From Lachnospiraceae bacterium oral taxon 500 (lineage in GTDB: Bacteria; Bacillota; Clostridia; Lachnospirales; Vallitaleaceae), in NCBI GenBank assembly GCA_002999035.1, contig CP027241.1, forward strand, positions 1,925,001 to 1,989,000: a DNA stretch of 64,000 nucleotides, in the 5' to 3' direction. The position numbers and the translations under genes were made by a program. Of the stretch, positions 2,257 to 6,585 are shown piece by piece; positions within the stretch are counted from its first letter, which is position 1; each line of letters starts with the position of its first letter. The notes beneath the pieces were generated by a model that was not told where the DNA came from, did not search any database, and worked only from the letters and a program-made list of their open reading frames with translations.

Positions 2257-2916
2257 ATGGCTGAAAATCAAGTTTTTTCAATTGCGAAAGATCGGCCGCC
2301 CAGAAGCGGCATGACAATATCCACGGTTTCCGGGATACGAGCCAAAGCGGATATTGTTTACTTTTCTTTGGGAGCGGGAACCGATATCAGTGCTGAAACT
2401 TATCCTACACCGAAGTTCTATATCGGCGCGGCCGGAAGAACAGTATTTGAATTGGGCGGTCGAGAGAACGGAAAGCAGATGGCCGTTCAAGCCGGCGAGT
2501 TGCTGATTGTCCCAGCCGGGACTTTATGCGGCATGGAAACAGTAAATGGGTCAGTTTATACGGAAGTTATTCCGGGAGAGGAGTTTTTGATGAATCAGGC
2601 GGTAAAAGCTGGTGAAGTTTTTAAATTGGCGGAACTTGTTGCCTATGAGCCGGGCAGCATTGTTAATATGGATGTGGCTTCCAATGAAGCGATGAAGTTT
2701 GTGATTATGGCTTTTGACGAGGGAACGGGTCTTTCTCCGCACAGCGCTCCGGGCGATGCGCTGGTCTTTGCCCTTGAAGGAAAAGCCGTAATCGGCTATG
2801 AAGGACAGGATCATCCGATTCAGGCCGGCGAGAACTTTCGGTTTGCCAAGGGCGGCCTGCACAGCGTGACAGCTAACGGCAGATTTAAAATGGCGCTGCT
2901 GTTGACGCTGAAATAA
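2257..2916 (+). CDS. Bicupin-domain protein
   Basis: I start this gene at ATG 2257, not at the GTG at 2251, because GAAGGAG (2245-2251) overlaps the GTG and sits five bases before the ATG. The 219-residue product has two cupin barrels. The first spans roughly residues 35-110. The second spans roughly 145-215, with H-S-A-P-G-D-A-L near its start, then L-E-G-K-A, A-G-E and G-G-L-H-S-V as expected for cupin motifs 1 and 2. Small bicupins of this kind accompany sugar-acid catabolism genes in Clostridia. Its place at the end of the pectin cluster suggests sugar binding or isomerisation, but no reaction can be assigned. Confidence 0.78.
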   Translation: MAENQVFSIAKDRPPRSGMTISTVSGIRAKADIVYFSLGAGTDISAETYPTPKFYIGAAGRTVFELGGRENGKQMAVQAGELLIVPAGTLCGMETVNGSVYTEVIPGEEFLMNQAVKAGEVFKLAELVAYEPGSIVNMDVASNEAMKFVIMAFDEGTGLSPHSAPGDALVFALEGKAVIGYEGQDHPIQAGENFRFAKGGLHSVTANGRFKMALLLTLK

Positions 2917-2963
2917 GAGACTGCAGCGGGCGTTAAGTGCAGGGTCATAAGAGAATAAATAAT

Positions 2964-3010
2964 AAGCAGAAGCAGCAGATACTAAGAGTTTTCTGTGCTT
3001 CTGCTTTTTG
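2964..3010 (+). terminator. Rho-independent terminator after the pectin cluster
   Basis: An 11-bp perfect stem (2964-2974 with 2996-3006), extended by an inner CAGA/TCTG pairing, ends in a T run. It lies 48 bases after the bicupin stop and should end that transcript. Confidence 0.85.
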
Positions 3011-3106
3011 GTTTATTTTCGGGATATAATCCTGGCATTATGACCGGCGCGAAAGAAGCGGAAAACGCATCAAAACAAACAAATTGACAAACCGCCGGAT
3101 TTTAAA

Positions 3107-3135
3107 TTGACAAACCAGTCGGCTTTTTCTATAAT
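3107..3135 (+). promoter_or_regulatory. SigA-type promoter upstream of copA
   Basis: TTGACA (3107-3112), 17-base spacer, TATAAT (3130-3135): a perfect consensus. A second copy of the AAATTGACAAACC block lies 24 bases upstream at 3081-3093, so the -35 region is directly repeated; the repeat could be a regulator site. The expected start near 3142 gives copA a leader of about 300 bases. The rest of 3011-3445 holds two copies of a dispersed GC-rich repeat and an 11-bp tandem array but no gene. Confidence 0.8.
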
Positions 3136-3163
3136 AAGGATAAGGCTTTTTAAGCAAAGGATG

Positions 3164-3255
3164 GCTGCCTGCCCGGCAGAAAGCGGAGTTTTCGACATTT
3201 TTCTGCTTGTAAGAAGATGCGTCTTTTCGTTCAGCCGGATGCCGCCCGGGCAGAA
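3164..3255 (+). repeat. Two degenerate copies of a dispersed GC-rich palindromic repeat
   Basis: Copy one (3164-3195) reads CTGCCCGGCAGAAAGCGGAG then TTTTCGA. Copy two (3241-3255) reads GCCGCCCGGGCAGAA. The same core, CTGCCCGCCCGGGCAGAA, occurs at 21886-21930 and, reversed, twice at 37647-37714. All copies are intergenic. This looks like a REP-type element rather than a gene. Confidence 0.6.
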
Positions 3256-3390
3256 CCGGGAAGCGGTTTGACCGGAGCCGGCCGCTCGTTCTGGCAGGAT
3301 AGAGAAGTTTTGGGCAGGGCAAGTTAAAAAAAAGGCGGTGGACGCAAGGACAGCAGCTTTTTACTGGCAGTATTTGGTATTTGAGCTTGA

Positions 3391-3440
3391 GCGGAGATAG
3401 AACGGAGATAGAACGGAGATAGAACGGAGATAGAACGGAG
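3391..3440 (+). repeat. 11-bp tandem repeat carrying the copA Shine-Dalgarno
   Basis: The unit AACGGAGATAG is repeated about four and a half times, ending in AACGGAG five bases before the copA ATG. Each unit therefore carries a GGAG. Only the last one has correct spacing for initiation; the others could act as ribosome standby sites. Copy number could change by slippage without touching the coding frame. Confidence 0.85.
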
Positions 3441-3445
3441 TAGGT

Positions 3446-5788
3446 ATGAAAAAAGAAAAGTTTGATATTATGGGGATGAGCTGTTCCGCCTGTTCGGCGG
3501 CGGTGGAACGGACAATCCGCAAAATGGAAGGCGTAGCGGCCGTAGAGGTTAATTTGCTGGCTAATAATATGCAGGTCGAATATGATGAAGCCAAGGTCAG
3601 CGCCCAGCAGATGGTGGCTGCCATTGAAAAGATTGGCTATGGGGCTTGTCCGGTCGCACCGCCGGAAACTGCCGACCGAAAGAAGGAAAATACCGCTTTG
3701 CAGGAGCAAAAAAGTATTCAGGCAGCGGAGCAGAAGGAAATGCGGATTCGACTGTGGGGATCGGTTATCTTTATGCTGCCGCTGATGTACCTAAGCATGG
3801 GGCATATGATTGCCGCACCTTTGCCGGCTTTTTTAAGCGGCGTGGAAAACGGCGTTGCCTTTACCCTGACCCAGTTTTTGCTGACTTTACCGATTGTGCT
3901 TTTAAATAAAAAATATTATACCGGCGGCTTTAAGGGACTGGTACATCGGGCGCCCAATATGGATAGCCTGGTGGCGCTCGGCTCGTCGGCTGCCCTTGTT
4001 TACGGCATTTTTGCTTTGTACCGGATTAGTTACGGGATTGGTCACGGTCAACTGGAAATTGCGCACCAATATTTACATGACCTTTATTTTGAGAGTGCGG
4101 CGATGATTTTAACCTTGATCACGCTCGGCAAAAGTTTGGAGAGCATCAGCAAGGGCAAAACCAAGGCAGCGATGGAAGCGCTGATGAATCTGGCACCTAA
4201 AACGGCGATTCGTTTAAGCGGCGGGCAGGAGCAGGAGGTGCTGCTGGAGGAAGTCAGGGTTGGCGATATCTTGGCGGTTAAGCCGGGCAGCCGGGTACCG
4301 CTGGACGGCTTGGTGCTGGAAGGGGTGTCGGCGGTGGATGAATCGGCTTTGACCGGTGAAAGCATGCCGGCAGAAAAGCGGAGCGGTGATACGGTTACCG
4401 GTGCGACGCTCAATACCAGCGGTTATTTTACTATGAAAGTGACTAAAACCGGTGAAGATACGGCGCTGGCTAAAATCATAGCCTTAGTTGAAGAAGCGGG
4501 CAGCTCGAAAGCGCCGATTGCCAAATTGGCGGATAAAATCGCCGGTGTTTTCGTGCCGACGGTGATCGGACTGGCGCTTTTAACGATGGCAGGCTGGCTC
4601 TTGGCCGGACAAAGCTTTGAATTTGCGCTGGTCAGGGCGATCTCGGTGTTGGTTATTTCCTGTCCCTGCGCACTTGGATTGGCTACGCCGGTAGCGATTA
4701 TGGTTGGCACAGGAGTAGGTGCCAAACACGGAATCTTATATAAAAACGCGGAAGCGTTGGAAAATCTTTGTCATGTCAAGGTCATGGCGATGGATAAAAC
4801 CGGTACGATTACCGAGGGGAAACCGGCGGTAACAGATATGGAAGCCTTTGCGGTTTCACCGGAGCGGCTGTTAGCCATTGCGGCCGCTTTGGAAGCAAGA
4901 TCCGAGCATCCGCTGGCGGCTGCGGTTTTGCGGGAAGCGGAGGCCAAAGGAATCAAAGCACCGGAAGCTTCTGATTTTCAGGCTTTATCAGGTCTGGGCG
5001 TCAAAGCCCAAATCGACGGTCAGGATTATTTTGCCGGAAATGAAAGACTGATGCGGGAGCAGGGCTTAGCAGCCGAAGACAGCCTGCACTGGCAGGCCGG
5101 ATACAGGGCAGCCGAAAAGTATGCAGCCGAAGGCAAGACGCCGCTTTATTTTGCCGGAAAAGATGGGCTTTTGGGCATGATTGGCGTGGCTGATTTACCG
5201 AAGGAAAGCAGCAGGGCGGCAATTACCGGCTTACAGGCCGAGGGAATTCAGGTGGTGATGCTGACCGGCGACAATAAGGAAACGGCCGAGGCGGTCAGAA
5301 AAAGCGTGGGGGCTGATCAGGTGATTGCCGAGGTCTTGCCGCAGGATAAGGATAATGAAATTCAAAAATTAATGGCGGCCGGCAGCCGGGTGGCGATGAT
5401 CGGCGATGGAATCAATGACGCCCCGGCTTTGGCCAGAGCTGACGTCGGCATTGCGATTGGGGCGGGGACCGATGTGGCGCTGGAGTCGGCGGACGTTGTG
5501 CTGATGCGGAGCGATTTGGCAGACGCTTTGACGGCGTATGAGCTGTCGGGCGCGACTTTGCGCAATATCAAAATGAATTTGTTCTGGGCGTTTTTTTACA
5601 ATGTGATTGGGATTCCGGTGGCAGCCGGGCTTTTGTACCGCTGGGGGATTTTGCTCAGTCCGATGATTGGTGCGGCAGCGATGAGTTTTTCCAGTGTCTT
5701 TGTAGTGACGAATGCCCTGCGGCTGAATCGGTTTCGGCCGAAAAATCTGTACGCGTATAAAAATATAAAGGAGCAGCCGAAAAAATGA
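3446..5788 (+). CDS. copA: Copper-translocating P1B-type ATPase
   Basis: Inner-membrane pump that uses ATP to export monovalent copper. The 780-residue protein has one N-terminal HMA domain with the metal site C13-S-A-C16, a short linker, then membrane helices. The intramembrane C-P-C motif is at 406-408. The phosphorylated Asp is D450 in D-K-T-G-T. The S-E-H-P-L motif of the nucleotide domain and G-D-G-I-N-D-A-P-A-L before the last helices are present. CPC plus HMA identifies the Cu+ subgroup rather than Zn/Cd. The ATG is fixed by GGAG five bases upstream, the last unit of an 11-bp tandem array. No CsoR, CopY or CopZ gene lies beside it. Its stop overlaps the next start (ATGA). Confidence 0.96.
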   Translation: MKKEKFDIMGMSCSACSAAVERTIRKMEGVAAVEVNLLANNMQVEYDEAKVSAQQMVAAIEKIGYGACPVAPPETADRKKENTALQEQKSIQAAEQKEMRIRLWGSVIFMLPLMYLSMGHMIAAPLPAFLSGVENGVAFTLTQFLLTLPIVLLNKKYYTGGFKGLVHRAPNMDSLVALGSSAALVYGIFALYRISYGIGHGQLEIAHQYLHDLYFESAAMILTLITLGKSLESISKGKTKAAMEALMNLAPKTAIRLSGGQEQEVLLEEVRVGDILAVKPGSRVPLDGLVLEGVSAVDESALTGESMPAEKRSGDTVTGATLNTSGYFTMKVTKTGEDTALAKIIALVEEAGSSKAPIAKLADKIAGVFVPTVIGLALLTMAGWLLAGQSFEFALVRAISVLVISCPCALGLATPVAIMVGTGVGAKHGILYKNAEALENLCHVKVMAMDKTGTITEGKPAVTDMEAFAVSPERLLAIAAALEARSEHPLAAAVLREAEAKGIKAPEASDFQALSGLGVKAQIDGQDYFAGNERLMREQGLAAEDSLHWQAGYRAAEKYAAEGKTPLYFAGKDGLLGMIGVADLPKESSRAAITGLQAEGIQVVMLTGDNKETAEAVRKSVGADQVIAEVLPQDKDNEIQKLMAAGSRVAMIGDGINDAPALARADVGIAIGAGTDVALESADVVLMRSDLADALTAYELSGATLRNIKMNLFWAFFYNVIGIPVAAGLLYRWGILLSPMIGAAAMSFSSVFVVTNALRLNRFRPKNLYAYKNIKEQPKK

Positions 5789-6585
5789 TGATTCCCAAAG
5801 ATTATGGCAAAGTTGAGCTGTTATTGTTTGATTTGGACGGAACGCTTTTACGCAGCGATAAAACAATATCCCCGGTTGTGCTGGCAGCGCTTCGGGATTG
5901 CCGCCGGCAAGGGCTTCCAATTGGAATTTGTACTGCCCGCGGTGAGCAGAACAGTTTAGTTTTTTTGAGAGAGCTGCAGCCGGATTTTTTGATTGTCAGC
6001 GGCGGTGCTTTGATCAAAGCAGGTGGGCGATGCATTTATGAAGCTGCTTTTTCGGCTGAAGAAACCCGGCAGATGATTCAGGCGGCCAGGGAAATTTGCG
6101 GCGCCGAGTGTCAAATTACGGTTGATACGGCGGCGGCTCATTATTGGAATTATAAAGTCGATCCCAGAAGTTCCGAAAAAAATTGGAGCGGCAGCGTCTA
6201 TACCGATTTTAGTGATTTTTGCCAGGATGCGTTAAAGCTGTGCGTTGAGATTTTTGAGACGGAGCAGGCGGAAAAACTTAAAAAAGCCTTGCCGGAGACG
6301 GACAGTATTCGTTTTTCTGACAGCTTCTGGTATAAGTTTACCAAAAAAGACGTAACCAAAGAGACGGCGATTCGGAAACTCTGTGCGGCCAGCGGTATTT
6401 TGCCCGATAATATCATTGCTTTTGGCGATGATTTGGCCGATATCGGTATGCTGCGCCTGGCCGGAGTGGGCGTGGCGATGGGCAATGCGCTGACCGAGGT
6501 TAAACAGGCGGCCGATATCGTCATTGGCAGCAATGACGAGGACGGGATTGCCGAGTATTTGCGGGAGCTGATAGGAGAATCCTAA
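5785..6585 (+). CDS. Cof-type HAD-IIB family phosphatase
   Basis: 266-residue soluble HAD hydrolase, probably acting on sugar phosphates or a nucleotide cofactor. Motif I, L-F-D-L-D-G-T-L (Asp16 nucleophile, Asp18 acid), opens the protein. Motif II lies in I-G-I-C-T-A-R-G, the T-K-E-T-A-I lysine is motif III, and G-D-D-L-A-D-I with V-A-M-G-N-A is motif IV. The cap region between is of the C2B type. The start overlaps the copA stop by four bases (ATGA), implying translational coupling; a second ATG at 5788 is possible. Linkage to copA is positional and does not show a copper role. Confidence 0.88.
   Translation: MMIPKDYGKVELLLFDLDGTLLRSDKTISPVVLAALRDCRRQGLPIGICTARGEQNSLVFLRELQPDFLIVSGGALIKAGGRCIYEAAFSAEETRQMIQAAREICGAECQITVDTAAAHYWNYKVDPRSSEKNWSGSVYTDFSDFCQDALKLCVEIFETEQAEKLKKALPETDSIRFSDSFWYKFTKKDVTKETAIRKLCAASGILPDNIIAFGDDLADIGMLRLAGVGVAMGNALTEVKQAADIVIGSNDEDGIAEYLRELIGES

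Follow-up and report, generated by a model that had tools for sequence, protein, structure and literature searches.

The copA locus

The window, that is, the whole stretch of 64,000 nucleotides that was analyzed, is part of a one-contig genome of 3,201,383 bases that is 99.98% complete. The gene copA lies on the forward strand at 3446..5788 and encodes a copper-translocating P1B ATPase of 780 amino acids. It was assigned by profile matches: the product scores 590.8 bits against TIGR01511 (cut-off 397), scores under the cut-off of PRK10671, the E. coli-type CopA equivalog, and contains the domains HMA, E1-E2_ATPase and Hydrolase. The copA stop codon lies within an overlap with an open reading frame for a Cof-type HAD hydrolase (5785-6585), which is probably translated from one mRNA with copA.

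A candidate sigma-A-type promoter, TTGACA-17-TATAAT, was recognized by consensus match at 3107..3135 (forward strand). It agrees in 12 of 12 consensus bases; 0.6 such sites were expected in shuffles of the 701-base region scanned, at the looser threshold of the tool. If transcription starts about 7 nt past the -10 box, as was assumed, the copA leader would be about 304 nt long (3142..3445, forward strand). An exact 13-bp direct repeat, AAATTGACAAACC, is present at 3081-3093 and 3104-3116, its copies starting 23 bp apart, and may be an operator; the presumed promoter has its -35 box inside the second copy.

The leader segment 3142-3391 is predicted to fold only slightly more stably than its shuffles (z = -1.29, with 20 of 200 shuffles equally good), and the region around the array (3380-3500) has no such advantage (z = +0.78). 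A scan of 2900-3600 against Rfam, with E values up to 1, gave no match to described RNA families. Two degenerate copies of a dispersed GC-rich repeat were matched on the reverse strand of the leader, at 3165..3197 and 3240..3275. The repeat is palindromic, with the core TTTCTGCCCGGGCGGGCA and a unit of about 43 bp as judged by eye, and is sometimes tandem. With up to 2 mismatches, TTTCTGCCCGGGCGGGCA has 84 matches in this genome, and 24 and 6 in two congeners (controls 0); the congeners prefer T at a position where this species has C.

The tandem array

Directly before copA, positions 3392..3440 of the forward strand consist of 4.5 copies of the 11-bp unit CGGAGATAGAA with zero mismatches (3392-3402, 3403-3413, 3414-3424, 3425-3435 and a partial copy at 3436-3440). 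Tandem Repeats Finder reports the same interval with a period of 11, 4.5 copies, 100% match and a score of 98, the top of its 27 rows for the window. The hexamer TTGAGC, duplicated at 3381..3392 on the same strand, directly abuts the array. Five GGAG cores recur in the array at 11-nt steps. The final core (3437..3440) is followed by TAGGT and the ATG at 3446; it is the only GGAG of the array at normal reach of the copA start (5 nt) and is presumed to be the working Shine-Dalgarno (SD) sequence.

These data agree with the preliminary description, which had reported an 11-bp unit in four to five copies, each with GGAG and the last at normal spacing from the copA start; the unit given there, AACGGAGATAG, differs from CGGAGATAGAA in register only, and a spacing of 5 nt is ordinary for this genome. 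It had also placed the SD-bearing unit outside the reading frame, which holds: gain or loss of whole units would spare the last SD and the ATG. With more than three perfect tandem units, the array has the form of a slippage-variable repeat (VNTR or contingency locus), for which at least three perfect or near-perfect units are required.

The array is unique in the genome. The two-unit pattern, with up to 3 mismatches, matched genome-wide at the array site only (3 overlapping matches; control 0) and was absent from 100 dinucleotide shuffles of the window. No second site in the genome matched the single unit with at most 1 mismatch, and the exact two-unit pattern had no match in viral contigs.

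Comparison with other copA leaders

The CopA proteins of two other species of the genus are 78% identical to that of the window. Their leaders read AACGGAG-CAGTT-ATG and TGGAG-TGGAC-ATG, with one GGAG each at the same 5-nt spacing; the corresponding stretches contain 2 and 3 GGA in all. Comparison of the 700 bases upstream of copA in the congeners with the leader in the window gave no convincing similarity (best E 0.089). In one congener (locus L035, about 2980-3010), GGACATGAAA occurs twice, 16 nt apart, in the copA start region, and a second ATG lies 16 nt upstream of the presumed copA start.

A wider set of other copA leaders comprised 106 distinct sequences from 109 loci after removal of 3 duplicates. 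In none of the 106 do the last 70 nt ahead of the start include a tandem repeat. GGAG is absent from 56 of them, present once in 42, twice in 7 and three times in 1. Among 22 genomes of the family, a fourfold GGAG with 11-bp period was found in this genome only. A triple GGAG of the same period before an ATG was sought in 392 genomes of the order; 12 had a match and 4 had control hits, and among the sequences listed for those 12 the only true repeat is that of the window.

Since the congeners have a single GGAG and none of the 106 other leaders has a repeat, the array appears to have grown in this lineage from one SD. A lineage-specific expansion of a single Shine-Dalgarno is thus the most likely reading of the sequences compared, and replication slippage or a like process is its most likely origin.

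Tandem arrays and GGAG-rich leaders in the genome

Tandem arrays were counted in 40 further stretches and the window, together 864 kb of this genome, at a minimum of 2.9 copies and 90% match and with a simple ORF caller. Thirteen arrays of period 7-30 were found, 8 intergenic and 5 in ORFs; 4 have a period of 11. When the 8 intergenic arrays were placed at random, at least one fell on a -20..-1 region in 902 of 2000 trials, so that selection is not needed to account for an array on an SD. Exact doublings of 9-12 bp number 41, as against 14 in one Markov control, while those of 7 and 8 bp show no excess (85 vs 101).

Other perfect or nearly perfect intergenic arrays with 9-11-bp units, purine-rich on one strand, are AAAATAGAGG x5.9, which starts at a gene end (L153, 17664-17722), ATAAAGAGG x4.8 (L145, 4397-4439), AAAGAGAAT x3.1 (L145, 1636-1663) and GGGGAAATCAA x3 (L142, 1283-1315). 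An 11-bp unit, AAAAGAATGCC, is present in about 2.9 copies within an ORF (L166, 11861-11892), where its length is not a multiple of three; by eye the ORF resembles a putative group II intron reverse transcriptase.

With five GGAG in -60..-1, the copA leader has the most of 668 sampled leaders; two others have 4. At least five GGA are present in 27 of the 668, copA among them. A GGAG-to-start spacing of 5 nt was found in 48 of the 365 sampled leaders that bear GGAG, in a survey whose starts were picked by a script favouring SD matches. A loose triple GGAG, with 3-12 nt between cores, has 54 matches in this genome and 33 in the reversed control. By eye, one more regular GGAG series besides that of copA was seen, at 819,475-819,526 with a 12-bp step.

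Start codons, pairing and predicted accessibility

The array region (3391-3445) contains no ATG, GTG, TTG or CTG, which leaves a ribosome bound to a spare SD no usual codon at which to start there; the rare start codon ATA occurs four times. TAG is present in all three frames, and frames entering from upstream therefore end in the array. Four frames that open with GTG or TTG and run for 8 to 20 codons stop at these TAGs; they were considered as leader peptides and rejected, having no convincing SD by eye.

The presumed 3' end of the 16S rRNA, GGATCACCTCCTTTCT, was found at two places in the genome, which indicates that GGAG can pair with it. The calculated pairing energy is -6.6 kcal/mol for the unit and -7.5 kcal/mol for the last SD. 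With the leader taken from 3142, the predicted cost of opening -18..+15 is 11.7 kcal/mol with 0 units, 7.9 with 1 unit and 7.9-8.7 across 1-8 units. The stretch from SD to ATG alone costs 5.8-6.4 kcal/mol, flat at every unit number. With four shorter assumed leaders the opening cost levels within 1-3 units. The last GGAG is predicted to be 0.25 unpaired with the full assumed leader, and the opening cost is more than half lower with the shorter ones. The array with 4 full units is predicted to be unpaired at 0.60 per base on average. If the array is of any benefit, these models suggest a spacer effect that saturates.

Published leaders with repeated elements

In Bacillus licheniformis, six tandem RBSs raised output 5-fold (Zhang 2022, PMC9723656). 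The gain required start codons in the RBSs and 15-21 nt between SDs, in a range of 12 to 24 nt tested; without start codons the positive effect of tandem SDs was abolished (PMC9723656). Those leaders resemble that of copA in having tandem SDs in one leader before one gene, with 1 to 6 copies. They differ in both properties on which the gain depended, as the copA array has no usual start codon and a step of 11 nt.

In E. coli, replacement of one SD by four tandem SDs greatly reduced the yield, a fitted expression parameter dropping from 0.110 to 0.0036 (Popov 2011, PMC3061898), and SD repetition is stated there to suppress translation, with reference to Alexiev 1989 on tandemly repeated ribosome binding sites. 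This construct, too, has several tandem SDs in place of one ahead of one gene. Its SDs are synthetic consensus sequences, 15-16 nt apart as read off the printed sequence, whereas the copA units are natural and weaker (-6.6 kcal/mol, as against -11.9 for the E. coli unit).

Ribosome standby sites comprise a single-stranded stretch upstream of a sequestered SD, a layout that the copA leader may share, but standby modules are set by hairpins and single-stranded flanks rather than by SDs, and extra modules are not additive: synthetic leaders with 2, 3 or 4 modules had a single translation rate, and the effect of long proximal single-stranded stretches plateaus (Espah Borujeni 2013, PMC3936740). 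According to a review, some of the efficient leaders of E. coli have multiple SDs and AG repeats (PMC9844084), and for this reason the sign of a spare-SD effect is not settled.

Natural repeats in leaders are also described. The AGAT repeats of Moraxella catarrhalis uspA2 (Attia and Hansen 2006, cited in PMC4679880) likewise form a tandem repeat between promoter and start, with a unit number that can change outside the frame; there the unit is not an SD, and its number varies (6-23) and matters. The TAACTGA heptamer repeats of Beggiatoaceae (MacGregor 2015, PMC4679880) are short tandem repeats on the ribosome-binding position as well, but there one unit forms 169 sets in a genome and has little SD character, in contrast to the one site, in one genome, with an SD unit described here. 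In the accessible text of the open-licence literature, engineered tandem SDs were found and no natural tandem-SD array; the available part of PMC3899988 contains nothing on SD repeats.

Alternative explanations

The preliminary description had proposed that a change in the array would alter the leader length and the number of standby sites and thereby tune copper export. Taken as an additive effect, this would mean that extra units recruit more ribosomes and raise copA translation. The array is predicted to be 0.60 unpaired per base with 4 full units, it sits below a leader predicted to fold (z = -1.29), and both multiple SDs and AG repeats occur, by the review cited above, in certain efficient leaders of E. 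coli (PMC9844084). Additivity was not supported: the predicted opening cost is flat past 1-3 units, and the published constructs, as excerpted, are non-additive or negative, with the same rate for 2, 3 or 4 modules, a plateau for long single-stranded stretches (PMC3936740) and a tandem-RBS gain tied to start codons and 15-21 nt between SDs (PMC9723656). An enhancing role is accordingly held to be improbable. The opposite effect, in which spare SDs hold 30S subunits where no start is possible, so that copA translation drops with every unit and slippage sets a dimmer, is also considered unlikely, yet it is the strongest of the alternatives. The E. coli four-SD cluster cut yield (0.110 to 0.0036, in the part of PMC3061898 available), the upstream copies of the copA array pair with the 16S rRNA almost as well as the last, and steps of 11 nt would preclude simultaneous occupancy of all SDs. 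With a copA SD as weak as -6.6 kcal/mol, compared with -11.9 in the E. coli construct, a 30S subunit would be held only briefly, and start-less SDs in B. licheniformis are reported to lose the gain, not to repress (PMC9723656, excerpts).

The repeated GGA also suggests a CsrA target, five motifs with one on the SD, through which the CsrA of this species would repress copA translation. The genome has a csrA above the Pfam cut-off (81.4 bits, cut-off 27), directly following an ORF read by eye as a putative fliW; a flagellar-type gene also precedes. Together with a GGA on the SD and a second GGA at bridgeable distance, this is the composition expected of a CsrA-repressed leader. CsrA binds GGA motifs, many of which coincide with an SD, and sites 18 nt apart suit it best (PMC4894983); alternate units of the array are 22 nt apart. 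Four ANGGA in 60 nt occur only in copA and one other of the 668 leaders, and the congeners likewise have more than one GGA there (2 and 3). We know of no link between CsrA and copper. The number of GGA is unexceptional, given the 27 of 668 leaders, copA included, with at least five, and the array region shows no stronger predicted fold than its shuffles (z = +0.78). Repression by CsrA is therefore regarded as very improbable. An error of assembly or sequencing in the unit number is less probable still, given the single contig at 99.98% completeness and an array of 49 bp, which should be shorter than usual reads. A period of 11 bp corresponds to about one helical turn, and direct repeats on one helix face might bind a regulator as a DNA operator. 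Against this, the unit is absent elsewhere in the genome at up to 1 mismatch, neither congener has the array, and some 250 bp separate it from the presumed promoter upstream; an operator is the least probable of the explanations considered.

Proposed origin and effect of the array

It is considered probable that the array arose by slippage from the single SD of copA and that it is near neutral or mildly repressive. A short minisatellite would have grown, by replication slippage or a like process, from a single copA Shine-Dalgarno, and its last copy presumably serves as the SD of copA today. The four upstream copies, predicted to pair with the 16S rRNA about equally well and with no usual start codon in reach, would be at most weak 30S decoys and a purine-rich spacer that clears the start site of upstream sequence. 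Gain or loss of a whole unit would then have about no effect past the first one to three units, or would cause mild repression as units accrue. Taken together, the published constructs favour a none-to-negative effect for a weak, start-less array with an 11-nt step. Slippage as the origin, the promoter, the leader length, and the size and sign of any translational effect are all inferred.

Some observations do not sit easily with this explanation. The copA leader tops 668 leaders in GGAG, and an SD array that happens to lie on an SD is a tidy coincidence. That the units are all identical could be a sign of selection and not of recent origin. If E. coli is a fair guide, the effect of four SDs may be strong rather than neutral, although the SD of that construct is far stronger.

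Tandem Shine-Dalgarno arrays in other genomes

Scans for triple SDs gave no excess over reversed controls, for which tallies were counted by eye from tables. Triple AAGGAG was found in 21 of 398 genomes of the phylum (27 with reversed-control hits), and triple AGGAGG in 13 of 391 genomes of the class (32 with reversed-control hits). These scans thus give no indication of a general preference for multi-SD arrays. Twenty loci from the AAGGAG scan were inspected, and 14 of 20 from the AGGAGG scan, the other six being overlapping hits at the same places. At two of the loci inspected, the repeat is non-coding and immediately precedes an ORF. In L190, from a genome of the same phylum, 11 copies of AAGGAGT are followed, at 11 nt, by a GTG and, at 20 nt, by an ATG of a protein with a Cu_amine_oxidN1 domain. 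L218, from a 73%-complete genome of the class, has nine AGGAGG in units of 13-14 bp, 7 nt before an ORF of 333 aa. L185 is a looser case, with three AAGGAG at 11-12 nt and unlike spacers before an ORF of 297 aa. At L188, L192, L215 and others, starts are nearby but a long open frame runs through the repeat.

Natural tandem-SD arrays could be translation dimmers set by slippage, a small class so far unrecognised, with copA, L190 and L218 as independent members, although this is unlikely. In such a class an SD copied upstream of itself would supply decoys, and translation would be lowered stepwise and reversibly with the gene untouched. Tandem repeats in bacterial leaders are already known, as are engineered tandem SDs, with opposite outcomes depending on host and design. 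In this genome, tandem arrays are frequent enough that chance alone could put one on a ribosome-binding site. Overall, the array is real and specific to this lineage; it most likely arose by slippage and is nearly neutral, the decoy dimmer being the interesting alternative. A natural leader with an SD as its repeat unit allows the question of whether spare SDs help, hurt or do nothing to be asked in an evolved setting. If spare SDs hurt, a gene could be turned down simply and reversibly by slippage at its SD.
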